The notes under the pieces: generated by a model
Database searches by the model: none
Told to the model about the DNA's origin: nothing
What the model saw: the letters and a program-made list of their open reading frames with translations, nothing else
From: Antedon mediterranea
Taxonomy: Eukaryota > Echinodermata > Crinoidea > Comatulida > Antedonidae
Reading direction: 5' to 3'
DNA: 64,000 nucleotides
NCBI RefSeq assembly: GCF_964355755.1
Contig: NC_092671.1
Coordinates: 33,871,304-33,935,303, forward strand
Shown here: positions 73 to 48,254 of the stretch, in pieces
Layout of the letters: every line of letters begins with the position of its first letter
Position numbering within the stretch: the first letter of the stretch is position 1
Made by a program: the position numbers and the translations under genes

Positions 73-102
73 TTTGAGCAGCGTTTAATCCAGAAGGAGG
101 TA
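73..102 (-). CDS. Micro-exon 5 (30 nt, type A: PPSGLNAAQ)
   Basis: Acceptor TTTTTTTTTCAG, donor GTAAGTCAC. Phase 1-1. It encodes I-PPSGLNAAQ, one codon longer than the other type A exons. Further exons probably lie left of the window. Confidence 0.6.
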
Positions 103-2667
103 CTGAAAAAAAAAACAGACGTAACAATTATTGATATAGTTATGTTATATTAGCAAAAGTTAGGCTGATGTTTGAAATCTCGTTTGTGGGATAGATGACT
201 TTCTTTAGTTACTCACTTTCTACTCGACGGATTCTATCCTGACCTGAAATGAAATGAAAATCAGTGTATCAAAACCCACATACAATGTTTTGACATATAA
301 AAAGATGTTGATGCTGATTTAAACTTTTTTTCCCTAAAACATATAAAATTAAAATTATAAAAATCAGACTTTAAATAGGCCATTGTGTAGTTAAGTTAAT
401 CATATCCAAAGAAAAACAACTGGAAAATGTAATTGTAAAAAGACAAAATATAGTTTAAATTCAACCCGAAACCCACTTACATTATATTGTATTCAACAAC
501 AAAAAAATAAAAAATATTATATTGTTCTGTGGAACAATATTTCTTCAATTTTATATCATTTGTATTTAAAGCAGAAGAAAACAATAAGAACTTTTAATTG
601 TATATTTATTTCAACACATGTAAGTTCGAAATATCTATATCAAGTACTCACCTTCATCTCGACGGACTCTTTTATGATCTGAAACACATTATTTTAAAAA
701 AATAATAACTGGTTGTATCAGAAGCGCATATGAATTAATGGAAACAAGTTACTTTCAAATCGAAGCTATTGTGATTGTTTGGGGATGGATGAAGGTGATG
801 AGGTAGGTTATTTGTTGCTCCGGTAAAATTATACTTGGAGTTTAGTTCTATATAATTTATGTTGAATAAGAAGGGTATATTGTAGTTAACATAGGGTCTT
901 AGTGATACATGTTTTAGGCCAACTGGTAGCTGAGACTCTAATATTTGGTCGGTCCTATTCTTTGCCTTTTTTTGTATTACATTAATGACTACATTACTTT
1001 GAAAATAAAAGAATTAGATATCACATGATTTGCATAGTATTGATATTTCTGACATAGCTTCAACGGAAATGTAGGCAATTACAAATAGGCTTTTATTGCC
1101 AATGTTTGATTATTAAAAAAACGTAGGTCACACATATCATGTACATATTTTAGTATTTAGGCTTATTATCTTTTAAATTGAATTCAACGTGAAATTATCG
1201 AAAATACATGAACATTTGGTAATATGAATGTACCGGTATGCATTGTAACTTACTTTCACCGTTTAATCCACTAGGGGGTGCTGAAACAAAGATCAGACAA
1301 AAATCATGAACACTTTAAAATATTATTCTTTTGAGTATCGAATTACTTTGGAGTGTTATGATGGGGGCTTTACGTTATATATTGACTAATATTGTCTCCA
1401 TCACAGTGAGATTGTTGGAAATGTTTACTTTTGTTAGACAAAGTATAGTGTTTATGGCTGTGACGTCGTCTTTCTCTCAAATTTCAGGCCTATCAATTAT
1501 TAAAAACTGTGTACATGTTTTTGTAACTTACCTCCAGCGTTTAATCCATGAGGAGGTCCTGAAACAAAGAAAAAAAATATGATTGTTTAAATTGAGTAGA
1601 AAAACTTGACCGAAAACCATATTTTAACAACGTATCAGGAATATAAATATAATTTCAGAACAATCGCGAGATTGACGATATCGCCGCGCAGCCATCCACG
1701 TAAGTTGCTGTGACGTCACAAGTAAATGGCAAAATCTGCCTCATGAATTTTCACTGTTGTTAACATACAAGAGAAAGGTACCGTCACTTCAATTGCTAAT
1801 TTCAATTGCCTAAATTTGCCAAAATGTTTAGTCTGGTATTTTGAAGAAACACTTCAATATCCAGATTAGGCAAATGTAACAACAAAAACATTCAACATTT
1901 ATATTTTTTTACGATTTATTTAAAAAGTGTGTTTACTAGAAATGTTTGCGCTTTGCGAGACAATAAATCGAACTTTTTAATGTACGTGTGCAGGCGCGGG
2001 CAATTGCTGTTTGCCGCAAGTACATCTTTACAAATCGATTAAATTGGAAAAATATATAATGAAAAACTTGAAAGTATTATGTTGGTCCTATACTTTGATG
2101 CTTTGATGGAGTGAGGTATGACTGTATTCTATTTTGTATCACACGTGACTTTAACACAATATCGTGACTCTTTATATATGGCTCTATAACTTGCGGTGAC
2201 GCGCGGACAAAACGGGCAGGTGATTTAATCGTGGACCTATATCTATATACATATGATGTTTTCACAAAACAATAGAAAACGATAGCAATTCAATTGGATA
2301 AACACACCTTTTAAGTTTTGATTATCCAATAGCTTAAGTTATTTATTTTTAATAGTGGTGTTAAAACACCACTATGGTTTTTCTTGGAACTTATCTAACC
2401 CGTAAGAAATGTCACGTAATACGAAAACCAACGATTAAAATAACAAGGATATACGTGTTATAAAATAAACTTGTTAATATAGTAGTTTCAGTATTGTATT
2501 TTCTTGTTTGTCATTATTAATTTATGTTCTACAAATTAAAAACTTCTATCGTTGAATAATATACATTTAAGCATATATAGTACATGATAAAACAATGACT
2601 TACTTCCCATTGCCGAGTCAGCATGAAACAAAAATACTATAACAAATATAACTACCAACGATTGCAT
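73..2667 (-). CDS. Micro-exon gene for a secreted precursor protein (5' part; continues past left edge)
   Basis: I do not recognise this gene; its structure is clear. Seen: a start exon (2604-2667) encodes a 21-residue hydrophobic signal peptide and ends in phase 1. It is followed on the minus strand by five exons of 27, 27, 27, 27 and 30 nt, each with a pyrimidine-tract AG acceptor and a GTAAGT or GTGAGT donor, all phase 1-1 and all open in the one frame they share. Two module types are encoded: PPHGLNAG, PPSGLNGE and PPSGLNAAQ (type A), and HKRVRRDE and QDRIRRVE (type B). The R-V-R-R and R-I-R-R motifs fit furin-type convertase sites. Inference: a secreted prepropeptide or small variable secreted protein whose exons can be skipped or duplicated without breaking frame, like the micro-exon genes known from schistosomes. 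The 3' end lies outside the window. Confidence 0.7.
217..243 (-). CDS. Micro-exon 4 (27 nt, type B: QDRIRRVE)
   Basis: Acceptor CATTTCATTTCAG, donor GTGAGTAAC. Phase 1-1. It encodes G-QDRIRRVE with a second R-x-R-R site. Clear relative of micro-exon 3: shared TCCGTCGAG core and the same GTGAGT donor class. Confidence 0.65.
652..678 (-). CDS. Micro-exon 3 (27 nt, type B: HKRVRRDE)
   Basis: Acceptor TGTGTTTCAG, donor GTGAGTACT. Phase 1-1. It encodes N-HKRVRRDE; RVRR fits the R-x-[KR]-R furin consensus. Confidence 0.65.
1254..1280 (-). CDS. Micro-exon 2 (27 nt, type A: PPSGLNGE)
   Basis: Acceptor CTTTGTTTCAG, identical to that of micro-exon 1; donor GTAAGTTAC. Phase 1-1. It encodes A-PPSGLNGE. 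Exon and acceptor similarity to micro-exon 1 point to exon duplication. Confidence 0.65.
1532..1558 (-). CDS. Micro-exon 1 (27 nt, type A: PPHGLNAG)
   Basis: Acceptor CTTTGTTTCAG, donor GTAAGTTAC. Phase 1-1. It encodes R-PPHGLNAG including the split first codon. It shares the core TGGATTAAACG with micro-exons 2 and 5. Confidence 0.65.
1600..1960. mobile_element. Degenerate MITE copy (same family as 7146-7499)
   Basis: It shares long stretches with the element at 7146-7499: ACTTGACCGA, TTTCAGAACAATCGCGA, GACGATATCG, TGACGTCACAAGT, ACAAGAGA-AGGTACC and the TTTACGATTTATTTAAAAAG end. About 100 bp around 1800-1890 is absent from the other copy. It lies in the intron between the signal-peptide exon and micro-exon 1. 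Non-coding. Confidence 0.6.
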
Positions 2668-2668
2668 G
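2604..2668 (-). CDS. Start exon: signal peptide
   Basis: ATG at 2667, 21 codons plus one base, then the donor GTAAGT. The peptide runs MQSLVVIFVIVFLFHADSA then MG: a short n-region, a hydrophobic core and a plausible signal-peptidase site after DSA. An acceptor-like TTATTTTACAG lies one base before the ATG, so a non-coding upstream exon is likely. The phase-1 end matches the first micro-exon, which completes an Arg codon. Confidence 0.7.
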
Positions 2669-3127: not shown

Positions 3128-4429
3128 GCTTTATTTAATCACGGATACTTAACTCAACTGAAAGTTATTTTTCAGAAAGACCTTAAAATCAGTTAGACCC
3201 CTTTACCGAATCAGTGATCATAAGCCTAACACTTACATTTTACTTGACATGGTGATACAATAACGCCAACTCGAAGAGTAAGAATGATTTATATCAAATG
3301 AACTAACGCATCAAATAGTCTGAATACTAAATGCTAAATGAAAGGAAGGATGAAGAAGATTGTTATATTAGGACAGTTTGAATGTATATGATTGGTCAAT
3401 TACTTTACACTAGATTGGAAGGGACGCGAGTTAGAGGCAAACAATGGGATGGGTCACTGTAGGTGTCAATGTTGACACTGCCCTTCCAGTTTAGGTGTGG
3501 ATTGGCTAAAATTCCAGTGCTCACCTAGTGATTCCCACGCTCACACGAAATACAGAAACTATGGTTATAGCAACTATTTCCATGAAAAAAACAAGACTGG
3601 GTCGTGATAGAAGGTTATAGAGAACAGGATACCTGGAAAAATCATCTATAGCATTATAAATCTATGAATTATAGTTTGTATGAACAATCGTATTATGATT
3701 TTCATCATGATATTCTTGACATACCGCGCTATAGAAATATATAAAACAATACCTTACATCGATATATTATTGATGTTTACATCATCAGTGCAACCTTTCA
3801 GTTTGATTGGAACAAACATAATGTCCATTGTTTGTAAGTGTCACATCCAGTTGTGTGAACTCTCTATCACCGTATGTACGTGGGCCCGGCCGATAATACT
3901 CTGAGCCAATTGAAACAGGCTCACATTGAAAAGTTGAAAGCATCTACATTGACGCGACAGTCTACTGGACACAGTTGATGAACAGTAGTTTACTACTGAA
4001 CAGGCTCACCAGAATAGAGAATAAATAAAAAAATAAAATAATATTAATATAACCGTAGACGCAGAGTTATTATTCGTATAGTTATTGGACCACATATTTA
4101 TTTTTAAGTTATATTACCACATGGCACTGCTATATTTACCCGATTTTTTAGTGCTGTATCTCCTCCTACTATAATATATCGAGTGTAATATGAATATTTG
4201 GCAGCATCTCATTTGTATCACATGCCTGTAAGCATGTAAGTGTTATATACATGAAACAAATGTGATGTTGAATTACCATTATTCATATTACTGAAAAAAC
4301 CTAGACTTCAGTACCGATAATTAATTAAAGTGGGTGCTTTATTTATGATTTATTATACATTTCGGAATATTGTTTCGTATACATAATTATGGATTGGCTT
4401 GTTTAACATAACCCAAGGTGCTTATCTAC

Positions 4430-8921: not shown

Positions 8922-10035
8922 TCAAGTTCAAAAACCATTTATTTATTCAAAAAATGGCATTATACAGTATAATATAATTATAGGTGTGTACATAAATGAA
9001 AACATACTAAGCCATCATTTGGGGTCTTCTCTAGAAGAAAACAAGTTTCTTGTCTCGAGAAAGACCCCAGAAACAATACACATACATTTAAACTAATACA
9101 ATTTACTACATAAAATAATAAATAAAAACAAAAACGATGAAATAAAAATAGATACTTTCAGTGTACTACAATCATAATAATATTAAAATTAGTATAAAGA
9201 AATAAGATATTTTTTTTAATTTTTACGAAAAGTATAAAGAGATTTAAAATGCTTTAGTTTATCATCAAGATCATTCCAGATTCGCGGTCCTGAAACAGAA
9301 ACAAAATATTCGGAAATTGTCAGTCTAAAAGGTACATCAAGATGCTGAAATTTATTGTCGATACGTAAATTGTACTTGTGTGATTTTGTATGATGACTTA
9401 ATAGATTAAACATTGTCACAGGGAGTTTGGTATTAAAGAATTGAAAAATAAAGGAAGCAATTTGTGTTGTAAATAGATCATGTAGACTAAAAATATTGAG
9501 TTTTTTAAGTAAAGGTTGGGAAGGGGCGAGATAGTGAGAGAAAGTAATAATACGGGCAGCACGTTTAATTTGTTTATTAAGTTTTTCTAAATTTGATGGT
9601 TAGTCGGCTGCCCAAATAATGTTGCAATAAAGAAGATGAGGTTGTATAAGGGTGTTATATAACAAGAGTAAGATATGTTGTGGAAAAAAGTGTCTTAATT
9701 TACAAAGGATGCCAATTACTTTAGATATCTTTTTAGATACATACGCTTGATGACTGGTCCATCTCAAGTATTCATGTATATAAACTCCAAGGAATAGTAC
9801 TTCGGGTTTACGTTCAATAATATTATTGTTAATGTAAATATCAAGATTAGAGAAATCAATTTGTCTTTGTTGAGTACGAAATAAAATGTAATTAGTTTTC
9901 TGTACATTAACAATAAGCTTATTTGAGATGAACCAGTCAGTCATTTTATTTAGTTCAGTGTTGACGGTGTTATATAAGACATTGATATCAGAATGAGAAT
10001 ACAAAATTGTAGTATCATCAGCAAAGAATATGAGT
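8922..10035 (-). mobile_element. 5'-truncated non-LTR retrotransposon (reverse transcriptase 3' part)
   Basis: On the minus strand a reverse-transcriptase fragment starts at about 10030 with FFADDTTIL (the F-A-D-D catalytic box). It runs through SNKLIVNVQKTNYILF and FLGVYIHEYLRW to a stop at 9600. A second piece (9419-9216) carries the usual LINE C-terminal motif SGPRIWNDL. The two parts are separated by stops and shifts, so the copy is dead. The 3' end carries a TTGAAC-type short repeat (8918-8932). Same family as 47177-48237. Clade (Jockey/CR1-like) not resolved. Confidence 0.8.
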
Positions 10036-12600
10036 GAATATCAGAGTGTCACTTGATCTAGAAATGGTAAAAAATAAGGCATTTCTGAAATGAAAATAAT
10101 TCTTCAGAATGTACGGTGACCCCTTATTATGGAAGCCAATGAGTATCTGTGATCGATTTTCTTTTAATTTTTAATACATTCTACCTCAACGAATTATGTT
10201 ACTTATGAGTTGGCAATATTTTCTTTTGGATGACGTCATCACGTCTTAAAATTTAAATAACGGTGGTTACGTAATTTTACCTACAAGGTATATTTGAATA
10301 CCTACAGCTCTTTTGATTTAAAGTTTACCTCTATGTTTATATTTTAGTATGATAGCTGGTGAAATGTAGATATGAATTCATACAAAAATTAGGCCTATCA
10401 GATGTTGTGACGTTATCATATGGCCAGTTGAAGTTAAAAGGTAGTTTTTTCATCTCTTTCATCAAAGTTATACAATTTTTAAAGAGCGCGCACGGCCCTT
10501 CTCCGTGCCAAATTTTCTTCCAATTGTTATATTTTATTGCTAAATTCATTATCTTTCGATATTGTTATCCACAAGTTTTTTTTATAATGTCATCAGTGCC
10601 AAAAACTTGAACATGATGTGTGTCTGTAATTTCACCTATGCTACACTGTATATAGATATACACAGTACAGTATATACTGTACATAATTATTGTATATGGC
10701 ATATAATAGGCACAACTCAGCACAAAAAGCGTATAATAGGATGGCATACATCAACATTTTTCGATCGTATGTTAACATACGTGCATGTTTAAAAAATATG
10801 AATGTCAATAAAATGATAAAAATGATCATCTATAATTCGTCAAAGTGACGAATTAAATTCTAGTTGTTTTTTGTTTTTTTGTTGTTGTATCTTTACAGAA
10901 TCTTCGTTGATTCAGTATTCTGAGCCGAGGGAAAATTCAAAGATCACATTTCTCTATTTTTGAGATACGGATTGGGTAGGTTTGGTCAGTATGCGTACAT
11001 TTTTATTCTTTCACTTGGGTCTGTCTTGGGCGATGTTTGATGCTGTGTGGATGTTCAAACCGGTTCATGATATGATGTTTGATTCCTAAGAAGTGTGCGG
11101 TTGTCCTCTGTCTTCGGTACTATCTGTTTTTTCAAAATTTGTATTTGCATTTATGCTTCCAGCACTTCCTCTTGTGACGAGACCGAAGTATCGATTTGTT
11201 TTCAGTGTTTTTGGATTAATCCATGTAAAGCTCCGTTTACACTATCAAACGTATGTGGTGTGCCTAAATATGGTAGTGATATACCCAAATATGGTAGTGA
11301 TATGTCATCATCATGTCTATTATGGGCACCTCATATTTTTTTGTCACAAACATTTTAAAGTTTAGACTGAGCTTAAGGATGTGACAGATTAATTTGAGCG
11401 TTTGACTTGCCAAATGATGTTCATGATATGGCCGTAGCACCTACTTTCAAAAGACGTTATATTTTTTTAGTGCCACCTTTTTTAGCAAGCGTGCTTCACA
11501 CGGTTAGACAGAACAAAATCGTTCAATGTAGTTACATATTATAACCATAATCCCGTTTCAGCTTAGATATAATATGCTTTTTTTTATTCGAAACCTATGT
11601 TTATTTATTCATTTATTTATTTAACAACATATTTATACAGGATAAAACACAATCAAGTAGAAATAAACTTGTTTTGCAATGGGGTTGTCTTAAGATCTGT
11701 ATTTAAAAGTATCTTAAATTTGTTTCATTGTGAAGAAAATGTGCATATATTTTTAATTGCAGTACTAAGAAATAATAATAATATATAACACAAATATAAA
11801 TAACATGACAACTTTTAATGACGGATATTAACCAATAACATCAGTTAAAATTGATATGTATTGTACAAGAAATATTTTTTTTTTTTTTAAACAATGTTTC
11901 TGAATAAAACTGATTGTTGTTAGCCTTATTAGGAGTCTATGGTTGTTATAGCATAATATGTGTTTTGTGATGAAAATTATACGTTGTTTGTTCTTTTAAA
12001 CTAAGACGTTAATATATAATAATGACATAATTACTGTGTACAACATACTACGTTATGCATGCTTTAATATTTTTTCTTCTATTTTTGTGCATTCAGTTTA
12101 AATGTTCACTCGAGTTTGAAGTATGTTTAGTGTACTACAACTATAGCAAACATTAATGTTTACTGTACACAACCTTTGATTTTTACTGGTCTAAAATCCA
12201 TATCTACTTTTAACAAATACGTCTTTTTATATATAAATTTGGAGGATTATACATTTTCCTTCCACTTCGTCAATTTACATATACAAGTTAAGTACAGTCA
12301 TTTATACCATCATACCCACCGGGCCGGACGCAAAACAACGTTAATGAAGCGACAGTTAGACTCAATCACCAATCAAAACGTAACTTATTTTTAGTGCACT
12401 TTCATGATTTCTTACTTAATAATAGGGAAGAGTACACTTTCAATTTCCCTCTTTTCTGCTTAATAACCAACATCAATTTACTTATTTGAATTGTGTGCAA
12501 AAAATGATATTCCTTCTAAGCATTCATTCAAAATAGTTTGTCTCTTACTGGTGTTTTAGAATTGCTTTCAATGCTATATTCAAATATCTTAGTTATGAGA
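10036..12600. other. Intergenic, no supported gene
   Basis: Contains small palindromes (10628-10697 around ACAGTACAGTATATACTGT; 10836-10858 AATTCGTCAAAGTGACGAATT) and a TTTATTTATT stretch at 11600-11632 that may be a retrotransposon tail. ORFs at 11093-11365 carry a short direct repeat (PKYGSDIPKYGSD) but no known domain and no splice context. This is the 3' flank of the receptor gene. Confidence 0.45.
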
Positions 12601-24800: not shown

Positions 24801-27243
24801 GTATAAGTCACCATGTTTCCAGTTTTATCAGTAGCTGTGTAAGTCACTTCTGTGATTCCAACCGGAAACACATCTCCGGGATTGTGAGTAGACTCAACAT
24901 GGGGTAACACTCCCGAGTTATCATCCGGGTACGGTGGATTCCAGTTTACCGTTACGTTTGAGTGAACTGTATCGAGGAATACTTGTATGTCTTCGGTAAA
25001 ATTTGTGAAGTATGGTACATCTACGTCTATTTCAGAAAAATGATAAGCTTATATTATTAAATATATTTTAAAACAAGAATAAATGGAAATCTGGCTGAGT
25101 TAAACATAATTATGTATTTAAAAAATAGTAAAATGTAAAATCTTTTATAAATCCAAATATATGTTCTTTATCAAAAACACCATTATTATAAACAAGCCTA
25201 AAGTAACAAAACTTACCATTAACAGTAATTGTAAACTGACATAACTCAATATTACCAGCTCTGTCAACTGCGGTGTAGGTAACTAAGGTATCATACAGCG
25301 GAAACAGGTCTCCGGGGTTGGCGTCTGACGTGACGTGTGGGAACACTTCAGAATTATCGTATGCTCTTGTTGCAACCCAAGTCACATTTGCGTAAGCTTT
25401 TCCAGGAACATTATCTACCTCGAAGTCTAAGGTACAGTTTTTAAAGTAAGGCTTTTCAACATCTAAATAAAAAGAAAGAAGAGCATTATTAGTAATGTGC
25501 GCAACGTGTAATCACGTTTCAACACTACACAAATATCAGAGGTTGTCATGAATTAAATGTTAATAGGCCTAAAGCCTGTTTTCCTGTCGACGTTATTCGA
25601 CGCTATCGTTAACAATAATCGGCGATCTTCTACATAAACATAGAAATGTTAACGATTTACAGGAAAAGAAACTCGCTGTCGTTATCATTTCAACTTGAGC
25701 GTTTTCAAACAATCGTCGTTGAACTGTTACCGATCAACGACGATAGCATCGAATAACGTCGACAGGAAAACAGGCTTAAGTCTTATTTCTCAACATGCAA
25801 ATGTCTCTGTCCGTTTGTAGGATAATTCGAATATAATATGAATGTACGGTCGGCTACACCAGAGCAACTCTTCCAAAGTTATCATAAAAGCACCTTACCT
25901 ATAACGGTTATATTAAACTGGCAATCCTGGATATTAGTGGCTCTGTCGGTCGCTTTGTACATCACTGTCGTTACTCCAAGACGGAAAACGTCACCCGGAA
26001 TGTGGTTCGATACAACACCAAGAACATCGACATTATCGGTAACATTCGGTAACTGCCACGTAACGTTAGCATAAGGTGATCTGTACCATGTTGAAGTTTT
26101 TATATTAACAGGGCAGTATATGAAGAGTGGAGGTTCTCTGTCTAAAATACATAAAACAAACTAAAAAATCAATTACTGTATAATACTGCGACTGTATTTT
26201 GCATTTATTTCATATCCTTATTCAAGACAATAGGCCTATTCTTACATCCAACACAGCACTCACTGTAAGTCGTTCTGATTATTACAGTGCTACAATACTA
26301 CTTTACTAACATTGTTGCCACCATTACTATCGTTAGTGCTTCTACTACATCTACTTCACACTTCTTTTCCTAATACCATTTTAAGTTACTTACCTAAGAC
26401 AAGAATACTAAAAGTATACCACTGTATGTTTCCTGATTGGTCGATGGCTGTATACGTCACATCTGTTTCTCCAAAATAGAATATATCACCCGGACGATGA
26501 TTCGACGTAATATTTAAAGGTTTGCCAGAGTTGTCTTCTACATCAACAACTGTCCAACTGACATGCGCAAAGTTTACACTTGTTTCAGTTAGAACAGTAA
26601 TATTCGAGGTTAAGTTGTAGAAAACTGGGTCTTCTCTATCTAATTACACATAAGTACAATAAAACATATATTATCCCTACGTTTCTATGCTGAGCGATAA
26701 CACCAAACTACATAATATAAATGTATAGACCTCTATTGTAAAGGAATACGTTTTACAGTAAAAAGTTTTAGGTAATTGTAATTTTTTGTAATACGTAAAG
26801 TCGTTTCAATAATTTGGTCATTCTTAACATTTCCTAAACCTATTGTTTTTTTAATGAAATCATTTTAAAAATGCAATTTTTAACGTCGGATTTAATTTGA
26901 AATGTCATATTCAAGAGAATGAATTGAAAAAGTTACCTAATACAGTAATTTTGAATGAAAACTCATTGGCGTTTTTGAATATATCGTACGCCCAATACGT
27001 CACAGTTGTATTTCCGATGTGAAATGTGGTCTGTGGTTGATGAGTAGAATTGATAAACACTTCTTCCATAGAATTATCAAAGACAGTCGGAAGAGTCCAA
27101 TTTAAAGTGGCAAAAGGTTGATTCGGGTCCGTCACGACCAAAATGTCTTCAGGTTGACTGGAGAACGATGGAATTTCTTCATCTAAGAAATAAATAAACT
27201 TAAATATTATATATATAACCAACTAAGAATAGATACTGTAATT

Positions 27244-28302: not shown

Positions 28303-31300
28303 TAAGCAGAATGTGTATGTATTTGTCTGGTTTATATATAGTAATTGAATAAATACTTTTTGAAAATTATAGTATTTTAGCCTTATTTTTGTGTTTGTTT
28401 TTATCTATGAGGTATCCTTTGATGTAATCTTTTAGAGAAGCAATCGTTTCTGATGTCTTAAGTAGAAACTACTGAAACTTCTGTCACTACAGATCTAAAA
28501 ACCCAGCAAATACATTGCCTAATATTATACATTTCATGAGATGTATTCACATAACATGTAGGCCTACTACAGTATATCGTGCATTTAATGTACAGCGTGG
28601 ATTTAAATATGCACATAAAGTACACCAAACATTTTGAAATTAACGTACATCATTCATTTACAGTCATGCATTGCAGTATAGTATATCATGCAATAACATT
28701 ATCATGCATTGCAGTACAGTATAACATGCATTTACAGAATCATCAGTACAGTATATCTTGCATTTGCAGTATCATACATTACAGTACAGTATATCTTGCA
28801 TTTACAGTATCATGCATTACAGTACAGTATATCATGCATTACAGTACAGTCTTGCATTTACAGTATATCATGCATTACAGTGCAGTATATCTAACATTTA
28901 CAGTATATCATGCATTTACAGTATCATACATTACAGTACAGTATACCTGTCACAAGTGACATAAGTTTTGTATTTATTTTGCAAGTCATTCTTACTTTTC
29001 CTTTTGTTTTCATTATTTAAACCTTTCTTTTGTTTTAGGAAACTATTGTTTGAAGCCAGTGGAGCAGAGTGTTTGTGTGAAGAGAAGGAGTGTGTGGAGG
29101 TTGCTGATTGGAGGAGAGGTTTAAGAGTTGAGTTGGTGTGTGAGTTGCTGATTGGTTGAGAAGGATAAGGTGGTGGTATGTGTGCAATTGAGGGAAGGTT
29201 GAGAGGGAGATGGACATTGAGAGGAGACAGAGAAGGAGGGCTATGTTAGGTTATGATAAGCCAGAAAGGAAATAAAGTGATATACATGAAGTTAATAAAT
29301 TGTGCGTTGGAAATGGTTATGCTGAAATAGAGCTGAAGCAGAAAGGAAATAAAGTGATATACATGAAGTTAATAAATTGTGCGTTGGAAATAGTTATGGT
29401 GATATAGAGCTGAAGCAGAAAGGAAATAAAGGGATATACATGAAGTTAATAAATTGTGAGTTGGAAATAATTATGGTGATACAGAGCTGAAGCAGAAAAT
29501 AGAGCTGAAGCAGGAAGGAAATAAAGTTATATACATGAAGTTAATAAATTGTGCGTTGGAAATATTTATGGTGATATAGAGCTGAAGCAGAAAGGAAATA
29601 AAGTGATATACATGAAGTTAATAACTTGTGAGTTGGAAGTAATACTATAAGGCAGTGCAGAAAGACATCAAGAAACATTTTAACTTTATAGGCCTATTTC
29701 ATTTATTTATATGTCAGAAAATAGTTGCAGTTTGAGAAGAATTATAATTGGGAATACAAGCAGAACGGGAGCAGAGGCGTGGGAGTTGTTTAGTTGCAGA
29801 ATCGTTTTAACTGTTATCTTTCTAATTTGTTTATGTGTCAGCGTAGGAGAAAAGGCCAGAAGGAACGATATTGTGGACATTGATTATTGTTTAATTATTC
29901 ATCTTGTGATATTATTGTATTTGGAAGGGGGGTCTCTGGGATTTATTTGACAATAAGACGATGATGTTGATATTTTGTCTGGAAGGATTGGGAATTTGGG
30001 AAAGTGTATAAATTGTGTGGGGAATAGGGATACTGTATCATTGTTTGAGAATTGGTTGGTTTTTTTTTGTGGTTTTTTTTTTGGGGGGTTTGGATTATAA
30101 AAGGAAGAATTGTTTGTCAAAGATTATTAAATTTACTTTTTACATTTATATGTGTACAGTTGTGGCTATTTACCGTTGTTTACCGGTGGTTACCAGATAT
30201 TACATGCATGCATACCATGCATTTACAGTATATCATGCATTACAGTACAGTATATCTTACATTTACAGTATATCATGCATTTACAGTATCATGCATTACA
30301 GTACAGTATATCATGCATTTACAGTATCATACATTACAGTACAGTATATCTTGCATTTACAGTATCATACATTACAGTACAGTATATCTTGCATTTACAG
30401 TATATCATGTATTTACAGTATCATGCATTACAGTACAGTATATCATGCATTTACAGTATCATACATTACAGTACAGTATATCATGCATTTACAGTATCAT
30501 ACATTACAGTACAGTATATCTTGCATTTACAGTATACCTTGCATTTACAGTATATCATGCATTACAGTGCAGTATACCTTGCATTTACAGTATATCACGC
30601 ATTTAAAGTACTAGATGGTACGCTCGCTTTGCTCGCGTACCATCTAGGTCGTGCCCCACAGATGGTTCTCGAATACATAATAATTTCAGCGCTAAAAAAC
30701 TGGCGATTTCAAATGTACGTACCCCAGGACAATAATACATGTCGTTTAGGCCTACAAGAACATATAAATATACACTGTGATTTATGTACTCAACTAAAAT
30801 TAGCACCCTGGGAATTACTTCCGAAAGAGAAAAATTGTTTAAGTCAAATTTAAACAAACTTAATTTGTAACATAGGGTTGAGGGATGGGGAAAAGGATGG
30901 GTGCAAAAAGGAACAAATCAAAAATTCGATTTAATCGTCAATAAATATTAAATTATCTAACTCAAGTTAATTAGTAGGCCTAATGGTTTTAAATTGTTTC
31001 TTAGAGCCAATTCATACTTAAGTTGGTTCCTACCCTACCCACCAAAGTTGTTCTGCGTTTAGGGCATGCGGTGCACCGTAGGCCTATCCTCTACTACTGG
31101 CTTTACAACGCTACTCATGCAAGTAAGGGAAGGGTGATGATGTGGGTGGTTTAACTGTAATAATTAAGATTTGTACATAATATAGGGCGACTGAAAACGC
31201 TAGCTCATTATCCGTTAAAAAAAAAATCTATATCCAACCTTTTTTGAAAAAAAAAATTGATCGAATATCTGTTATGAGTATACAATACAGTACTTGCCTT

Positions 31301-34300
31301 TACGACGCCTGAGGGAATAGACACTTGTGGAACAGAGACTGGAATGTTCCATTCATCGCAAATTAATACATTTGTATAAACGTATATTAAATCTATCAAA
31401 ATAGCATTTTTTAAAGAAAATCGGCCTGTCTTCAACATTATGATGCTGTACTCTAGCTGTTCAACTGGTTTTCAGCGATTAAAAACAATTATCGTAGGAG
31501 GAGATAGGAAAATGCGAAGCATCCTCGTATTATTGTATGCGGGTATTTTTCAAGAAGGACATGCATTAGACAGTGTATACCACGATCGGAAAACACCCAT
31601 ATTTGGAGCAAATCGTTGAACTTTAATTCGTTTTAATCGTCAATAACTAATTATCGAACTCAATTTAATTAGTAAACAGGGTTACATCAGGTGGTTAAAA
31701 TCAGTATCGAAAGTACGAACTAACTTTATATACCATCAAGTAAACATTCTAGAAATAACGCGCGATTTACTGAATTTTGCCCTTACGTAAATTTATATAT
31801 AGATATCATTTATTTAGAGTATAGGGGCCTATACTACGCATTTACAGTATATCATACACTACAGTACATCATGCATTTAAAGTGTATATGCTCTGCCATA
31901 TTTGATTGTTGTACGTGTTTCATTTGTATGTCTAACAGTTGTTTAAAGGACCTCATTGGAATTAGGTTGATTTTTATTTCATTTCATTTCTTGTATTTAG
32001 TCTCACATTATAACAAAAAATAACAAACAATAGAGAGAGAGAGACAGGATTCCCAAAAGCGAACTAAATCAAACTATCAAGTGGGTCTCCAAAACAATAC
32101 ATAATCCTCCAACAATAAATACAAAATTACAACATTTAAAACAACGACTTTATGTGCTATACTTTTGGTTTATTGTTGAATGTATTTGCTTGCAAATTGT
32201 TTGTATTCATATTTTCTTGTAATCTTGTGTTGAAACCAAAAAAAATCAAACAAATTAAATACCATTTACATGTCATTACCTATGATTGCAATATAAAATG
32301 TGGTAACAGCATAATTCCCAGCACCATCGGCGGCAACGCAGTTTACAGTATGGTTTCCAATTCTGAAGACATGTCCTGGGACGTGTGTGCAGTTAATTGT
32401 TGGAGTGTCCTCTGAGTTGTCTCGTGCAATATCTATAACTGACCACCATGCAGGTGCTGTTGGTAAACCTTGATCCGTGTTGATCATCATGTTACTTGGT
32501 CCATTGAAGAATATTGGTTCCTCATTATCTGAAAAAAATGTTATTTCTTTTTGGTCAAATGTCAGCACTTTAATAATTCAGTTGGAAATCCTTGCTGACA
32601 GTAAACAACCGTTTCATAAGTAAAAATAAAGCAGACAGTACAACACCTTATTTTACTAGTGATAATGATGTTTAAAAAGTCTTACCAACAATTGTTATTG
32701 AAAATCCACATTGTGCCTCATTGTCACTTGAATCCGTAGCGAGATAAAATACTTCGTGAATTCCAAGGCGAAATACGTCGTTTGAGTAATAGGTTTGGCT
32801 TATCAGTGGATTGGCACCCGAGTTGTCTGACGCTGTAGGGTCGCTCCAGACAACGTTAGTTGTTGGCAGAAGAGTGTCAGTCGGTACAGAAATATTGGTG
32901 GGACAGTTTGAGAATACAGGAGATTCATTGTCTATGATAAATTAAAGACAGTAATTAATAATTGTACAGTATTAATTGAAAGGTGTTTCACTAACTCTTT
33001 GTTGAATATACAATAACATTAGATCGAATACTAACCTATCACTGTCACTTTAAACTCACAGGTTGCTGTGTTTCCAGAGTTGTCTGTCGCTGTAAATTCT
33101 ATAGAAGTCTCACCGATTGGATAATTTCCACCAACAAGAGTCGCGTTATCGATAACTGGGTCGATTAAACTATTATCAGTGGCTTGTATCGCATTCCACG
33201 CCGTAGAACCAATTGCAGCACCAGGAAGTGTATTGACAACAATATCAGAATGGCAGTTGGTAAAAACCGGTGGAGTTACATCTGTAACGTTACAGAAAAT
33301 AATGGAAAGAAAAAGTCAACTTCTTATGAAATATAATCAGTCAAAGTTTTTTTTTTTAATATCGTCATGACCATCAGATTGAATGATTTTATTTTAAAGA
33401 TAAACTTTAGTCTCAATTTATTTACCAGATAACGAATAACTCACTTTCAATAGTCTGACGGTACACAACTACAGTACATACGTCACAGCATTACATACTT
33501 ACCTTCTAATCTGACTATAAATTGGCATTGCATTTCCAGACCACCCTCGTCTGTTGCAGTGACGGTGACAGTCGTATCACCCAAAGGAAATCTTTGACCA
33601 TTGGTATGAGTACTAGTAACACTTGGTGGAACGCCAGAATTATCAGAGAAAGTAGGATTTTGCCAAGAAACAGATCCCTTCGAGTCTGAGGGTAATACAC
33701 TACCTTCTACAACGTCTGGACAGAACCCAACTGTAGGTGGCTGGTCATCTAAAGAGAAAATCAGATTTTGAGCTACATCCTTATAACAAAAATATTTGAA
33801 AAAAAACCTTTTTTTCTATAACTATAGGTACCGATTTGGTTTGACGAACATGTTTTGACACCTCGACATAAAGCGTTTTTTACCGGTTACGCTGACATCG
33901 TAAGTACACTGATTCTGATTGTTAGCGGCATCGGTGGCTGTGCAAGTAATCGTTGACACTCCAATAGGCATGTTCCTTAAACCAGATTGATCACATGAAA
34001 ATGATGTAACTCCAACGTTATCAGAGGCTGGGGGATCTTCTAACGTTATTGCAGCGTGAGGTTGGTCAGTGTCTGTTGACAAATCAGTAATTTCAGTTGA
34101 GCATGCAATTACGGGGGGTTCTGCATCTGCAAGAAAGTCGAATAGGTGAACGGATTAATGTCATTCTGTGATTGTAACGTTTGCATACCATTTTAAAACA
34201 CCCAAAATATACACACATTTAATTTGTTTATGCTTTTAAAAACAGCATATTTGTTAAATACAAAAAAAAATGAATACAGAAGAAAAATGGTAGCTTACAG

Positions 34301-37300
34301 GGTGTAATCGAAAATTTAACATATATGAATATATTATTATGTGTAAATATAGTGTAAACTTACCAATGACGGTGACATCATAACGACACCCAGTATAAGT
34401 ACACCAGCCTTCATCGGAAACGTACAACTGGACAGTGTACGTTCCCACACCTACTACATCACCAGGGCATATATAGTCAGTCGCTATTCTGCAAGAGTTC
34501 GTAAACAAACCAGAATTATCTGATATAATAATCTCGGGCTGGTATACCATCGTATTTGAACCTGACGGTAGGTTATGTGATTCATCCGTACATTCGGGAC
34601 TTGATATCACCACATCCTCCCAATCTGCAAAATAATGTAAATATGTAAGCATAAATCTTGATATGATGAACGCTTCTGAGCGACTTAGTATTATTTTAAG
34701 TGTATGTTTTAAGGCTATGTTTGTTCACGGGTTTGTTCCAAGTAATCACACAAAAGTCACGCTTGTGCCGGTAATTAAATCTAAATCAGGGAATATCACT
34801 GATAAAGGGAATTATCGGCCAATAGCTTTGGCATGTGTAGCTTCTAAACTTCTAGAGTCATTGTGGTAATTCACTGGACTCCCATGACAAACAGTTTGAC
34901 TTCAAATCTGGTAACTCAACCGAATTGTGTATATTTGCTCTTAAACAGATTATCGAGCATTACAACAATCATGGTAGCCCAGTTTATTGCTGTTTCTTGG
35001 ACGCTAGCAAAGCCTTAGATAAGGTGAACCACTGGACACTTTTCAAGACCCTAATTGACAGGGGTACCCCTTCACCTGTAGTTAAGATACTGAGGTCATG
35101 GTATAGGAATCAGGAATTTGTCAGGTGGGGAAGTTCCGTTTCCGATTCTTTCACTGTTCGTAATGGAGTTCGCCAGGGAGGCGTTATGTCCCCTCTACTT
35201 TACAATGTGTACACTGATCCGTTAACTGTTGAGCTGACTAAGTCAAAAGAAGGTTGTGAAATTAACAGTCTTAAACTGAATTGCCTAAGCTTTGCCGATG
35301 ACTTGGTCCTTCTGGCTCCGTCAGTGACTGGCTTACAAAGCCTAATTGGACTCTGTGAAGGTTTTGGTAGTGACCATGATATTACTTTTAATGAAACCAA
35401 ATCCAAATGATTGCTATTTTGCCCGAAAGTCCGCAACCTCAAAGGTGTTTTACATATTACCTTAAATTGGGCACCTCTAATCGTTGATAAATCAATAACC
35501 TATCTTGGTCATGTGATCAGTAATAACCTGAGTAATGAAAGTGACATCAAACGTCAATATCGATCTATTTGCATTAGGGCCAACTCTCTAAATAGAAAGT
35601 TTGGAAAATGTTCTACTAAGACTAAATGTTAACTATTTAAGAGTTACTGTGTCAGCATGTACTGTTCAACCTTATGGTGTAGATATAATAAGAGCACTCT
35701 GAGATTACTGAAAGTATGTTATAACAATGCCTTACGTTTGCTGCTGAAGCAGCCTAGACATTGTAGTGCAAGCATGACGTTTGTCTTAAATGACGTCCCA
35801 TCCTTAGACGAGTTCATTAGAAAATCTGTTTTTAGTTTTAAAAATCGTGTGAATGCAAGTAGTAATTCCTTGATCATGACCATTAATCGCCACGTTCTTA
35901 ATGTATCAAGAATGCACATACAATGGAATGCTTTGTTGCATTGACTTTATATCTTTACATATCTTTGTTTTTGTTCTATGAGCTGTAAGATTAATATTTT
36001 TTTTCTCTCTTTTGCTATGGATATAATATTATGTCACTATGATACTCCGAAATAAAAAGATAAATGAATAGCGTGATGACACACGGATGTTGATATCCCC
36101 TAAACTTTTGACTGAATTTTGATTGACAAATTGGCTTCATAAAAACAGAAACCACAGAATATTGTACAGAACTTGTCACAGCCAATCATAAGATCAAATG
36201 ACAAGGCACGCTCAGCATTAATAATCAGAAATAAATTGAATGAAAAGTATACAATAGAAATAATATATTATCATTTTTTGTATTGTAGACGCGCCTATTT
36301 TCATTTTCAGTAAATTAACAACACGTGACCGTATGTTTTCTGTTGCAATTATTACAAGTTGTTTAATCAATAATTTTCAAAAAACTGATTATTATAATGG
36401 AGATTTCTTTTTGTAAACACCACCATCATATAAAAAATGTTAGTTTCAGAAAGTGCATAATTTATAGGCATACCATCAACATATACAGAGAATTTGCAAT
36501 AGCCTGTAGCTCCATTAAGCGTCGCTGATATTTCAACTAGAGTTACACCAAGAAGAAAGTTGTCGCCAGGTTGATGAGAGCTGGTGATCGGTATATCTTG
36601 ACCATCAATTTGAACAACTGGTGCAGTCCATGTTACACTTGCGTAGTTGACACCACTGTCTGTTTCCGTAATAATGTTTTCGGGACAAGAACTTTCAAAC
36701 GCACTACCAAAGTCAGGGGAGGAAGAAGTGCCTTAAAAAAAACCATAAATAAAATATGATAAGCTGCCTGTAATGAGCATTTAAATTGAAAATAAATTTT
36801 CCGCAATTTGCCAAGAACAGAGTTAATTTAGAACCATAAAACGCCAAATTATACTACTGCATTTGTGACGGTGATTATATTGATTGGGTAAACCTTGGAT
36901 TACGAATATTCTATAATCCATGGGTAAACAAACGTGTATGAGCTATTCGCATTATTTTAACTCTGAGTCAACACATTTTGGCACTGCATCTTTCTATTGT
37001 TTCAGTATACAGTTTCCCAATTTATTCTTATTAATCAACAGCGTATAAATAACACATAATGAAAATATGGACAGAGTATAAGCATGTACATAATTAATAA
37101 AAAATAATATTGAAACGTAAGAAAGCTTAAAGTGGAGCTCCACCCAGAAAATTACTATTTTTCATACATTTCAACTATTATTTAAAAATATCATCCGTCA
37201 TACTTCATATTTTTTTGAAATTTTTTCAATGAGTACGATTTTCTTGAAAATCACGCCTTTTTGAGTTTTTGGGGGATACCTTGTAATTTCCTATTCTTTT

Positions 37301-40227: not shown

Positions 40228-41329
40228 CTTTAAAAATGTGTAAAGTTGTATAAGGGTAACATCTGTCCAAAAGTAAGAAGGTGTATTGTATTAAAACAGC
40301 ATTTTTACTTCTTTTTTTATAGTATCAATTATAGTAGGCCTTTACAGAATTTCGCAATAAAATATAACCCAAATAAACTAATGCATGAGAAGTTGGATAC
40401 TGGAAAAACATAAAACATAATTCTTATTATAATAGTCACGTGCAAACCCCATGGTTTACCTAGAATATCAAAAGGTACTTACATAACTGACATGTTTTAA
40501 ACAGCAACAAGATCTGTGTAATAAATAAATAAATGATTATTACATTCTAAATTGATCTGAATCCATGTTTGTATTGTACTTTTACTGAGGTTTAAATTAT
40601 ATTTTGTAATATTTATTTTTAATCGTTTATACGAATTTTGCATTAATTTCACTTTATTTAGCAATTTCAAACCATTAAAATTTAGCATTTGATAAGTACA
40701 CTATAATCTTATAATGCAATATATATCATTGTACAATTATTATACCAAATCTCAATTTGTAATACTAAATGTAAATCTTTATACCGTTGTAGGTTCCGTA
40801 ATATAAATTTTCTCTGACTACTTAATTGTGTTATATTTAGATTTTAACACAATATCAACATATTTTGTACAATATAATCTATTAACCTATTGACCACAGA
40901 CTGCTGTGTAATATCATTTATATGTCTATTGTTCATCATACATTGTCAACTAAACTATATCATAGGTCAACATGGATCTATCAATAGGGAGGTTTTGCAA
41001 TCTTACGAATACGATAACGACAACGGATACGTCACGCACAGGTATTCGTTTTTCGTAATCCAGTAAAAATCTGTTTCGCATGGCAACAAAATATTGAGGG
41101 CGCCGTCCAAAATATGACTGCGGTAAATTTGAGCGAAGTGCAGATACGTGTTGCTTGGTGCTTGGCTGCCTAGGCCTAGCGTAACATCAAAGCGAGTGAA
41201 GACTTTAAAAACTGCTATTTATCAAAATTGACCTGGCATTTTAGTAAATTACTTTAGTAAATTACTTTCTTTTTTTTTTTTTTTTTTCAATAACTTTTAT
41301 TTTCTCCTTTTATCAAAAACATTACACTC

Positions 41330-42743: not shown

Positions 42744-45700
42744 TCAATTGTCGTTATCTCTTTCTAATAATGGTTCCCATTTTTTAATATGGACATTATA
42801 TTTATTTTTATTTTTTGCGATATTATTCTCCACAGTTTCTGTAAAGAGTACCCATCTTTTAAAGTGAATGAAGTTAAGAGGAATTTCATTGATCTTGCAT
42901 TTATATATATATCTCTTAGCAAGAAGTAAAATCATATTAACAAAAGTTGAATATTTATATTCAAAAATACCAAAACATATGTCTATATAATTTAATCTAA
43001 TAGTGATGTCTAATTTCCTGAACCAATAAAACACATCATCCCACAATTTAGAAGTTTTCTCGCAAGACCACATTAGATGCATTACTGATTCTTTTTCCTT
43101 ACTACAAAGAGAACATTTATTATCTTGAATCAGGCCAATTTTGTGCAATAACTCATTTGTAGGAAGAATTCTATGTATAAATCTGAATTGCAGGTACTGT
43201 GTTTTGGTATCAAGAGTACATTCATAAGGCATCCTATAAATTAAATTCCAATTAACCTTAACAAGATTAGGCTCTTGGTTAAATTCATTACTCCATTTTC
43301 TATAAGCCTTTGGGGTTATCTTAAATATATTATTAAGCAAATTGTACACAAAGGTGGTTGTTTTTTTTTTAACTTCCATTAATTGTAATAAAACTGGCGA
43401 TTTTCTTGTAGGGTTGGGATTAGCTAATTTTTCTCGGTAATTTTGAGAGATAACATTAACTAAACCAAAAAAAAGAATGAAGTTGCAATTTATAGCATAG
43501 GTATTTTTAAATTCAGTATATGTCATAAAGCGTTGGTTGTTAAGCCTTACATCTGAAATATAATTTACACCTTTTAAGCTCCATGATCTATAAAATATAG
43601 TTTTCTTATTAATTTTAATGTTTTGATTGTACCACAATACTTCATCAGATACATCGTCACCATAATCATTTCTTAGTTTAAACCAGGCTATTAAAACATC
43701 TTGTAAAAAGGAGTTACCAAGCTTTTCATAATTAATTCCTATCCCTTGTTTTGGTTTACAAAGCCAGATCCATTCCCCACCGATGCTCAAAATTTGTTTC
43801 CTAAATAATTGTTTCCATTTTCCGTTTGTGGTTGTGTCTAAAAATCTTTTAACCCAAGTTATTTTTAGGGCTTCATTAAATTTATAAATATTTGTCATTT
43901 TTAAACCTCCATTATCTTTATCATTATACATAGTCTCTCTACTTACTCTATCAGGCTTCCCGCTCCAAAAAAATTTAAATAGAGTTCGCTCCAATTTTTT
44001 CATAAATTCACTTGAAGGGGATGGGAGGACAGAGAATAAATATGTTAATTGAGAAAGAGCCAGTGATTTGATAATTGTAACCTTACCTATTGGTGTTAAA
44101 TCTCTTTGGGACCAAATATTCAGGATTTTCTTTAGTTTCTCAAATTGAACATCATAATTTAATTCAAAGAGTTTGCTTTTATCCAAAGATATGTTTATTC
44201 CCAGAAATTTAACCGGTCCTTTAGTCAATCTATAATCAGGAGTGAAGTTCTTAATTTTATTTTTCAGCCTACCAATATTTAAAAAGCTGGATTTTGCCTT
44301 ATTTAATTTCAACCCGGAAATATTACCAAAGTTTTCTATAACTTTAATTGCATTAGCAATGGATGTTTCAGTTCCATCCAAAATTAGAGTAGTATCATCC
44401 GCAAATTGGGTGATTTTTATTTGACTGTCAGGATTAACACAAATTCCCTTAATTCTGTTGTTTTCCCGTACTGCAATGCCCATTATTTCAGCACACAAAA
44501 TAAAAATATAACAACTTAGTGGGCACCCTTGACGCACGCCCCTTGTTATTTTGAAATAGTTGGATAGGTAACCATTATTGATAACACAACTACTTATATC
44601 TGTATAAAACAAATTGACCCAATTCTTTAAGTCATTTCCAAAACCAAAGAGATCAAGGCACTTATCGATATAAGACCATTCAATTTTATCGTACGCCTTT
44701 TCAAAATCGATAAAAAATAAGGTTCCTGGAATATCGTTTTTATCTGAAAATTCAATCAGGTCTATTATTAATCTGATATTTTCTCCTATATACCTGTTTG
44801 GCAAAAATCCGGTCTGATCATTAGAGATAATTGTTCCCAGAACATTCCTCATTCTGTTTGAAATGGCTTTTGTAATTATTTTATAATCAACGTTTAAAAT
44901 GGATATAGGCCTCCAATTTTTTAATAATAATTCATCTTTGCCATCCTTCGGAATTAGTGAAATTACCCCTCTTCGTTGACTATCTGATAATCTACCATTT
45001 TTAAAACAGTAATTAAATGATTCAACTAGAATGTCACCAATTTGATTCCAGAAAGTTTTATAAAATTCCACTGGATAGCCGTCACATCCTGGACTTTTTG
45101 AATTCGCCATAGATTTCATGGCAATTGTACATTCGTCTAATTCAACTTGACCTTCACAATTTTTCATTTCATTTTCGGATAGTCTAGGTATATTATTAGG
45201 AGAAATGCCAAGTTTTTCTAGCATTTCAACATTATTAATAGAACAATCACTACTGTATAACTTAGAATAAAAATGATATTCCTCTTTTAATACTTTCTTA
45301 TTCCCAGTGACAATGTTTCCTTTATCATTTTTTAAATTTAGTATAGATTTTTTATTGTGATGTATTTTCTCAAGGTTTAAAAAGTATTTAGAATTCTTTT
45401 CACCCTCTTCTATCCATCTACATTTACTACGTATCATTGCCCCTCTAGCTTTATAATTATATATTAATTCCAATTCTCTTTTTTTAGTTTCAAGGTTGAG
45501 GGAGGTGTCTGGGTTTGAATTTTCTGCATACGATATTTCTAGCTCATTAATTTCTTTTTCAAGCTTTTGTTGATGTTTATTACGTTTTTTTGCCTTTTTC
45601 ACAGAATAGTTAATAGTTTGACCCCTAATAACACATTTGATTGTTTCCCATAGGATATCTGGAGTCGCTTCATTATTCTCATTTTTAATATTTGTAATGC

Positions 45701-46034
45701 TTTGTTTAATCATATTGACATAATCTATATCCGTTAATAGTGAAACATTTAATTTCCAAGTTCCTTTACCCGGTTTTTCATAATTATTTTTAAAAGCGAC
45801 AGTAATCATTGAATGGTCCGTCCTATAACCAGATGTTATTACATTGTTTTCCACACATGTTTTAAGCGATTTAGTGATTAAAAAGAAATCCAGTCGACAT
45901 AATATAGGTGGGTCATTATTCGATTGCCAAGTAAATTTCTTTGAGTTCGGATTCATTTTACGCCATATATCTATTAAAGATCTTTTTTCCATACATTTTT
46001 TTATCTCATCACGGGCCTTAAAATTGGTATGCAT
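42744..46034 (-). CDS. LINE ORF2: endonuclease C-terminus, reverse transcriptase, Cys-rich end
   Basis: 1096 codons without a stop. The apparent Met start is internal: the same frame is open upstream to about 46190, covering more of the endonuclease. The order endonuclease - reverse transcriptase (F-A-D-D near 44400) - C-terminal Cys/His motif is that of the L1 clade. Intact catalytic boxes, but without ORF1 and the 5' end it is not expected to be autonomous. Confidence 0.9.
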   Translation of the reverse strand: MHTNFKARDEIKKCMEKRSLIDIWRKMNPNSKKFTWQSNNDPPILCRLDFFLITKSLKTCVENNVITSGYRTDHSMITVAFKNNYEKPGKGTWKLNVSLLTDIDYVNMIKQSITNIKNENNEATPDILWETIKCVIRGQTINYSVKKAKKRNKHQQKLEKEINELEISYAENSNPDTSLNLETKKRELELIYNYKARGAMIRSKCRWIEEGEKNSKYFLNLEKIHHNKKSILNLKNDKGNIVTGNKKVLKEEYHFYSKLYSSDCSINNVEMLEKLGISPNNIPRLSENEMKNCEGQVELDECTIAMKSMANSKSPGCDGYPVEFYKTFWNQIGDILVESFNYCFKNGRLSDSQRRGVISLIPKDGKDELLLKNWRPISILNVDYKIITKAISNRMRNVLGTIISNDQTGFLPNRYIGENIRLIIDLIEFSDKNDIPGTLFFIDFEKAYDKIEWSYIDKCLDLFGFGNDLKNWVNLFYTDISSCVINNGYLSNYFKITRGVRQGCPLSCYIFILCAEIMGIAVRENNRIKGICVNPDSQIKITQFADDTTLILDGTETSIANAIKVIENFGNISGLKLNKAKSSFLNIGRLKNKIKNFTPDYRLTKGPVKFLGINISLDKSKLFELNYDVQFEKLKKILNIWSQRDLTPIGKVTIIKSLALSQLTYLFSVLPSPSSEFMKKLERTLFKFFWSGKPDRVSRETMYNDKDNGGLKMTNIYKFNEALKITWVKRFLDTTTNGKWKQLFRKQILSIGGEWIWLCKPKQGIGINYEKLGNSFLQDVLIAWFKLRNDYGDDVSDEVLWYNQNIKINKKTIFYRSWSLKGVNYISDVRLNNQRFMTYTEFKNTYAINCNFILFFGLVNVISQNYREKLANPNPTRKSPVLLQLMEVKKKTTTFVYNLLNNIFKITPKAYRKWSNEFNQEPNLVKVNWNLIYRMPYECTLDTKTQYLQFRFIHRILPTNELLHKIGLIQDNKCSLCSKEKESVMHLMWSCEKTSKLWDDVFYWFRKLDITIRLNYIDICFGIFEYKYSTFVNMILLLAKRYIYKCKINEIPLNFIHFKRWVLFTETVENNIAKNKNKYNVHIKKWEPLLERDNDN

Positions 46035-46839
46035 TCTACCACCTTTTTTATCAAGAGTTAAGTCTAGAACACAATTAAAATCCCCTCCATAAATAATGTG
46101 ATTGCAGCAAAAATCATCTAGTAACTTATCTATTTCTCTAAAAAACTGAGGGCTATCTGCATTAGGGGCATATATATTAATGCATGTAAAAGTAAATTAC
46201 TTTCAATAAAGGTATAATTATATTATAGTGGCAGGAATCATTCCTGATTCAAATGCAAAATGTGCAAAATAGATCAAAAACTATACTCGTTTTGTAGTTA
46301 CGAATATGATGATATGGTGATATTCGTCAACACGAATACGCTTTACGAATATGAAATGGGGATCAGCTCAAAAGTTTCACAAATGTGTGACGTATCCGTT
46401 TTTGTTATCGTATTCGTAAGGTTGCGAAACCTCCGTAATAACTAAGACTAACATCCGATTTACACAAAGACGATAAAAATAGATTTGTATGCATTTTTTA
46501 TATATAACAAGTTTTCATCCTAGAACTTTTATATAAGATAGCTAACATCATGTCTTTCATAAAACTAATATTATACACGTCCAATTAAATGACGTCATGA
46601 TAAGTAAGAGCAATAATACCGAGAGACGGTGTAACGCTATGTTCTTACTGGATTTGTTTGTACTATTGGATTTTTCAACAACAAAAAAACACATCATAAA
46701 TGGTTATCCAATAGTTCTAGAAAGATAACTCTCCTAATTTATTTTTTTATTTGTAAGACTAAATGGGGGTTTATCTATTTCAGCTACTGCTGTCGTCCTA
46801 GTTTGTATCAGCCTTTGTTTGTTTGTTTTTTATTGATTT

Positions 46840-48240: not shown

Positions 48241-48254
48241 AAAAAAAAATAGAC

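Follow-up and report, generated by a model that had tools for sequence, protein, structure and literature searches.

The left end of a 64,000-nucleotide (nt) stretch of Antedon mediterranea DNA (the window; C2:33871304-33935303, C2 being contig NC_092671.1) carries on its minus strand a chain of exons, gene A, which reads as one open frame throughout (Table 1). As read from the sequence, exons 2 to 7 are each preceded by a CAG acceptor and followed by GTAAGT or GTGAGT. Joined, exons 1 and 2 give MSSK-IMQSLVVIFVIVFLFHADSAMG (MSSKIMQSLVVIFVIVFLFHADSAMG). A TTTATTTGA-like box was found at a comparable distance upstream in several of nine aligned exon-1 stretches, including that of the copy at 33610315. 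The five tiny exons of phase 1-1 (27, 27, 27, 27 and 30 nt) which an earlier note had placed behind a signal-peptide exon are present on the minus strand with AG/GT borders and an open frame. The signal-peptide exon of that note also exists and its phase fits, but it starts at 2668 and is exon 2 of our model; the start codon lies upstream, at 3250-3237.

Table 1. Coordinates of gene A, of a nearby stretch resembling a long interspersed nuclear element (LINE) and of two paralogues; positions are those of the window unless preceded by C2
Feature	Position	Strand	Remarks
Putative TATA-like core promoter, TTTGATATAAATC	3286..3298	-	upstream of exon 1
Exon 1 (14 nt), ATGTCAAGTAAAAT	3237..3250	-	ATG, MSSK plus 2 nt; donor gtaagt; meets exon 2 in phase 2
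Exon 2 (65 nt, phase 2 to 1)	2604..2668	-	remainder of signal-peptide-like start, IMQSLVVIFVIVFLFHADSAMG
Peptide micro-exon 3 (27 nt, 1-1)	1532..1558	-	(R)PPHGLNAG
Peptide micro-exon 4 (27 nt, 1-1)	1254..1280	-	(A)PPSGLNGE
Site micro-exon 5 (27 nt, 1-1)	652..678	-	(N)HKRVRRDE; RVRR, furin-type site
Site micro-exon 6 (27 nt, 1-1)	217..243	-	(G)QDRIRRVE; RIRR, furin-type site
Peptide micro-exon 7 (30 nt, 1-1)	73..102	-	(I)PPSGLNAAQ; gene A then leaves the window
Open stretch, by eye like the C-terminus of a LINE reverse transcriptase	9216..9599	-	no Pfam match
Paralogue B1	C2 33674308 to ~33688641	+	11 exons
Paralogue B2	C2 33717710 to ~33727033	+	11 exons

The genome searched comprised 354 Mb on 18 contigs, among which COX1 had no match, and a region of 264 kb, the window plus 200 kb to its left, was read closely. 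Scans and profiles of this region revealed micro-exons of two classes on both strands, peptide exons of about 9-18 residues and site exons in which R-x-R-R has about three residues ahead of it and about two behind. Site exons read HKRVRRDE, QDRIRRVE, HNRVRREE, HDRVRRGEE, HGSRIRRDG, YDRIRRQA, YDRARRYA, YDRYRRQA and RERIRRQT. Peptide exons read PPHGLNAG, PPSGLNGE, PPVKKSGLNAD, PAAKRSGLNAE, SSIIEINAE and PPKKINTE, and in the plus-strand genes TPSWDEMITN, TRYIWNDINDD and APPPPPPPAVWNYGTTE. The internal exons modelled in gene A and in paralogues B1 and B2 measure 27-54 nt, are multiples of three and have phase 1-1.

The order of the exons is identical in B1 and B2, which share the terminal exon IGKINMNKTSNRTNNND..., the stop of B2 falling a few residues earlier. 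B1 begins MSTKLGSLVLAFLVVFVQCA-KAPSPPHPPAVWNYGTTE-NYDRIRRQA-RTPSWDEMITN-NYDRARRYA and continues NYDRYRRQA-RTPSWDEMITN-NYDRARRYA-RTRYIWNDINDD-IGKINMNKTSNRTNNNDPEIVL. A further copy on another contig, C8, was read in part, with weaker candidates set aside and no exon 1 found; it gives RMQTLVVVFLAVFFFNGGCGE, ITFPGGFGGGR, IQPTGGHG and HERNRRDK, followed by PPAVTGINVES, HDRIRREE, PPGPSGRINVES and HDRIRREE. R-x-R-R sites number two in gene A, four in B1 and three in the part of the C8 copy that was read. The exons of the gene at C2:33594597 are LAVFLFQAEFGQCQ, PWEEECIDLNGNTK, CMSVYNRIRRGL and GDRILRELG, and a relative at 33514118 contains CISAYNRIRRDI and GDRIIRST. No Pfam family scored above cut-off for A or B1, and searching the PDB with B1 returned chance-level matches only (best E 0.16).

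An exact pattern for the 27-nt site exon matched the genome 13 times, 12 of these in C2:33.592-33.872 Mb and one on C8, while its reversed control gave 0 matches. The exon-2 pattern, with one mismatch or none allowed, gave nine matches, all exact, eight lying in C2:33.514-33.825 Mb and one on C8, against 0 for its control; the window's own exon 2 is too diverged for this pattern. For exon 1 there were six exact matches, all in C2:33.674-33.875 Mb, and six further ones with one mismatch, three of them on C2 and three elsewhere. Since the reversed exon-1 control gave five matches with up to one mismatch, inexact exon-1 matches carry weight only where their neighbours agree. Such agreement was found at C2:33594597, a one-mismatch exon 1, where 0.93 kb further on there is a matching, in-phase exon 2, with RxRR exons behind it. 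Of seven exon-1 copies in the 264 kb, five are followed inside 6 kb by an in-phase exon 2 that is strongly hydrophobic, as judged by hydropathy only. RxRR exons also follow the exon-2-only start at 33514112.

By this count 13 to 16 gene starts are spread along some 360 kb of C2, and C8 has one more; some of them lead to no clear gene. The upper figure is the sum of nine exon-1 copies (33671877 and 33610315 included, 33475139 left out) and seven copies of exon 2 with no known exon 1. The lower figure takes each of the possible pairs 33671877/33652754, 33610315/33600716 and 33860142/33824997 as one start. The single gene of the earlier note is accordingly one of many, and that note overlooked the two classes of exon.

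In AT-rich DNA the eye readily picks out tiny exons, which speaks for a chance array of splice-like sites as a rival explanation. Candidates were defined by fixed rules (pyrimidine-rich acceptor, GTRAGT donor, 21-60 nt, a multiple of three, open in phase 1, one strand) and the densest 2.6 kb was scored in the window and in 100 first-order Markov copies of it, with a looser and a stricter acceptor setting; a generic splice-site matrix was too strict to serve here, and candidates composed of intron plus exon were dropped. The copies reached a maximum of four candidates per 2.6 kb under the looser setting and three under the stricter, each in one copy of the 100. The real stretch contains seven and five, respectively, or five and four without those that are parts of the signal-peptide exon. 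This count is only modestly above chance; it is homology that carries the case: the exons resemble one another, they are restricted to one cluster plus C8, and the site-exon and exon-2 controls gave zero matches. We regard a chance origin, which the earlier note had called unlikely, as hardly credible, although the margin in the number of candidates is itself modest. On the evidence of the DNA, the tiny exons of gene A are real and part of a clustered gene family.

The earlier note had also stated that any of these exons could be skipped without loss of frame, and this holds beyond gene A. Every skip combination is open in the three gene models (32/32 in A, whose unsure last exon was counted in, and 256/256 in each of B1 and B2), and pairwise exon junctions create no stops (0/36, 0/81 and 0/81, respectively). 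In 42 of 45 site pairs and 52 of 55 peptide pairs the exons resemble each other more closely than the introns beside them do; this comparison drew on 10 of the 17 site seeds and 11 of the 15 peptide seeds, picked partly by likeness, which favours such an outcome. Between B1 and B2 the site exons differ at one of 108 positions, silently, and the peptide exons at nine of 156.

We propose that the genes of the cluster probably encode secreted multi-peptide precursors that are cut at RxRR, the peptides being encoded by one set of skippable exons and the cut sites by another, and that the left end of the window would be the 5' part of one member. The design of a convertase-processed precursor, namely a signal-peptide-like start and repeated R-x-(K/R)-R sites bounding short peptides, can be recognised in the predicted proteins. 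Exons 1 and 2 would encode a signal peptide directing the product to the secretory route, where a furin-type convertase would cut after RxRR, the consensus for this kind of enzyme. Each freed peptide would run from the residues that follow one site, through one or more peptide exons, to the residues ahead of the next site, as in QARTPSWDEMITNNYD(RARR) in B1 and EEQPPGPSGRINVESGHD(RIRR) on C8. With a frame-neutral exon for every peptide and every cut site, the omission or duplication of a single exon would alter the set of freed peptides, and dropping a site exon by splicing would fuse two peptides. We infer from the sequence that the genes would be transcribed and spliced, that their exons may be used alternatively and that the products would be cleaved; these may serve as fast-changing secreted effectors or signals.

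Genes of similar anatomy have been described in flatworms and aphids. According to the portions of PMC4350168 and PMC10526429 at hand, the micro-exon genes (MEGs) of schistosomes and other flatworms have a signal peptide and consist mostly of very small symmetrical exons, largely of lengths divisible by three, the short ones measuring 6 to 81 bp and mostly 15 (PMC10526429), and they 'appear to be restricted to platyhelminths' (PMC4350168). The earlier note had compared gene A with this type, and as regards anatomy the comparison stands: a start that is signal-peptide-like by hydropathy is followed by a coding region made mostly of tiny symmetrical exons in multiples of three. It fails for the sequence motif which, in the same portion of PMC10526429, follows the MEG signal peptide (FL-hydrophobic-hydrophobic-F-X6-W-polar-(K/H/R)). 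By eye on the translations this motif is absent from A, B1 and B2; gene A contains no W, and the first W of B1 and B2 does not stand six residues after a MEG-type hydrophobic stretch. MEG exons are moreover mostly 15 nt, compared with 27-54 nt for the internal exons here, and the main text of PMC10526429 does not contain the word furin.

The bicycle genes of aphids, putative gall effectors, are fast-changing and average about 17 exons, many of them micro-exons that nearly all start from codon position 2, as given in the available part of PMC9168663. Very small internal exons starting at codon position 2 are shared by the present genes. The paired CYC motifs of bicycle proteins, in contrast, are missing from A and B1; gene A lacks cysteine altogether, and B1 has a single one, in its signal-peptide part. 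RxRR exons are not mentioned in the available part of PMC9168663.

Given these parallels, the proteins might be active uncut, as MEG-like or bicycle-like products in which the RxRR exons are binding or charge elements and splicing yields a pool of slightly different proteins. This explanation draws on the tiny symmetrical exons and signal peptide known from schistosome MEGs, and on an exon phase equal to that of the bicycle genes. Against it, R-x-R-R is the most constant element among otherwise dissimilar copies, and processing therefore fits better than general charge; we consider uncut action unlikely.

Among echinoderms the closest designs known to us are neuropeptide precursors such as SALMFamide, which likewise combine a signal peptide with several peptides between basic sites (PMC4313774, PMC9793003, as far as the text of each was available). 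Here, however, each peptide and each site has its own micro-exon, and the genes are clustered with 13 or more starts. The family might thus encode neuropeptide, hormone or gamete (sperm-activating) peptide precursors, giving a specific signal instead of a variable pool of effectors. This is a special form of the multi-peptide precursor explanation, with the same processing, and the probabilities of the two overlap; taken by itself it is possible but doubtful. It agrees with the standard design of neuropeptide precursors as outlined in the part of PMC9793003 at hand. Some of the freed peptides would start with Q, and gene A may end in GR, a reading of which we are unsure. Arguing the other way, an amidation glycine is absent before the RxRR sites of B1, the preceding residues being YD at each. 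Thirteen or more diverse starts with decay are also unlike most neuropeptide genes. Finally, six peptide strings of the family were looked for in the openly licensed literature, and none was found there. In our judgement, variable peptide exons beside constant sites agree better with gamete signals, or with secreted effectors such as defence, venom-like or mucus peptides, than with a conserved neuropeptide.

Clusters of diversified genes for secreted proteins are known in sea urchins, where the 185/333 (SpTransformer) immune genes are mosaics of elements. Clustering, diversification, assembly from elements and, as predicted, secretion are shared with the present family; the SpTransformer genes have two exons, with the mosaic lying inside one of them, whereas here it is a chain of micro-exons. 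In the openly licensed literature, surveyed by titles and the starts of abstracts, nothing relevant was found on micro-exon genes in echinoderms; nor were furin-cut antimicrobial precursors with such exons found there for sea stars, or precursors of a similar design.

Several observations weigh against the interpretation of the cluster as working precursor genes. Exon 5 has the weakest acceptor of the exons of gene A. The last exon of that gene is unsure; the candidate, PPTGR-stop at C2:33870244, lies beyond the window and may be a decayed copy, and neither AATAAA nor ATTAAA occurs within about 500 nt after it. A protein-level search of the genome with the translation of gene A returned its own exon 2 as the sole match. 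No exon 2 was found within 6 kb of the exon-1 copy at 33860142, nor after that at 33671877, for which less than 1 kb of sequence was examined. In 4.3 kb the copy at 33610315 shows a single doubtful exon (NERICLNE), and no RxRR exon occurs within 5.7 kb after the exon 2 at 33652754. C2:33475139 was rejected as a gene start, since the 6.3 kb that follow contain no exon of the family. In the 264 kb the site-exon profile produced 24 matches at E 3e-6 or better, 17 of which are its seeds; six of the other seven are without a GTRAG donor, and decay is therefore common. Lastly, the exons of B1 and B2 are identical at 311 of 322 positions (last exon left out) and five of their introns at 815 of 859, two further late introns having been dropped, one not computed and one containing a large gap. 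The introns are thus nearly as alike as the exons, so that selection, as the ratio of non-synonymous to synonymous change (dN/dS), is not measurable.

Decayed exons and orphan starts, together with the repeats and tandem arrays of the region, would be expected of a dying or silent cluster, in which formerly real genes are now mostly pseudogenes. Yet open frames, phases and splice sites persist over several exons in A, B1 and B2 and in what was read of the C2:33594597 and C8 genes, and we hold this explanation to be quite improbable.

If the cluster does encode cleaved precursors, a more speculative possibility, which we put forward tentatively, is a splicing-controlled peptide library whose exon cassettes are picked per cell or tissue, and whose TRYIWNDINDD cassette was perhaps born from a LINE. 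Each cell or tissue would then set its own mix of secreted peptides, and omission of a site exon would create a new, fused peptide. The new element is the cleavage site on its own exon, by which the identity of the peptides, beyond variation of the protein, would become a product of splicing. Micro-exon genes for secreted, fast-changing proteins have so far come from flatworms and aphids, where they are apparently tools against the host; a third case, in a possibly free-living deuterostome, would suggest that the design evolved repeatedly and independently of parasitism.

The lead on a LINE origin comes from the open stretch at 9216-9599, first noticed, before testing, through a profile match with E 0.0038. 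Its SVSGPRIWNDLDDK part resembles the TRYIWNDINDD micro-exon of B1 and B2 together with the acceptor region, in the same frame and strand sense. The exons were compared with 20,000 random 170-base slices of the 264 kb, the two B1/B2 stretches being left out. For the B2 exon the LINE end was the best match (seven overlapping slices, score 41), ahead of family exons at 38; with the B1 exon, the LINE and a family exon both scored 38. For a truncated B2 copy the LINE (41) was outscored by a stretch next to another B2 exon (45). Out of 5,000 shuffles, none matched the likeness of the TRYIWNDINDD peptide to the LINE; for the PPPAVWNY exon 32 did so, and for TPSWDEMITN 1,176; the PPHGLN and PPSGLN exons (5,000 and 3,205 of 5,000 shuffles) showed no LINE likeness in this test. 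As a lead only, the C-terminal coding end of a LINE may have supplied the TRYIWNDINDD cassette with its splice acceptor, which would explain the source of a ready-made TTTCAG/GA phase-1 cassette.

Further LINE-like sequence occurs in the window. A stop-free frame of 1150 amino acids at 42744-46196 (minus strand) has reverse transcriptase and zf-RVT domains above cut-off and an endonuclease below it, and further pieces like reverse transcriptase were seen by eye at 9216-10040, 34856-35410, 47271-48285 and 51546-53413. The stretch 28555-30853 (plus strand) is repetitive, with frames reading HYSTVYHAFTVSYITVQY-like repeats, and a strong GC skew of 0.309 was observed at 28-30 kb.

Long tandem arrays occur inside the micro-exon cluster at C2:33697022-33699425 (shift of about 68 bases) and 33742761-33744809 (about 40 bases). 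At C2:33791090-33799253 a self-match of 4478 bases with 100% identity, offset by 3686 bases, points either to an assembly artefact or to tandem duplication in the very recent past. The word TAGGCCTA or GGCCTA is recurrent, though uncounted, in introns and intergenic DNA, including C2:33869700-33870290. The neighbouring gene or genes in the window contain two HYR exons on the minus strand, at 33483-34154 and 38515-39018 (E 6.6e-19 and 8.3e-12), and also a C-type-lectin-like exon that scored 22.1 bits, just below the cut-off of 22.6. These domains would be in keeping with a deuterostome such as an echinoderm, and the HYR exons make a flatworm genome unlikely. The open frames at 25110-25511, 36367-36732 and 39935-40324 appear HYR-like by eye.

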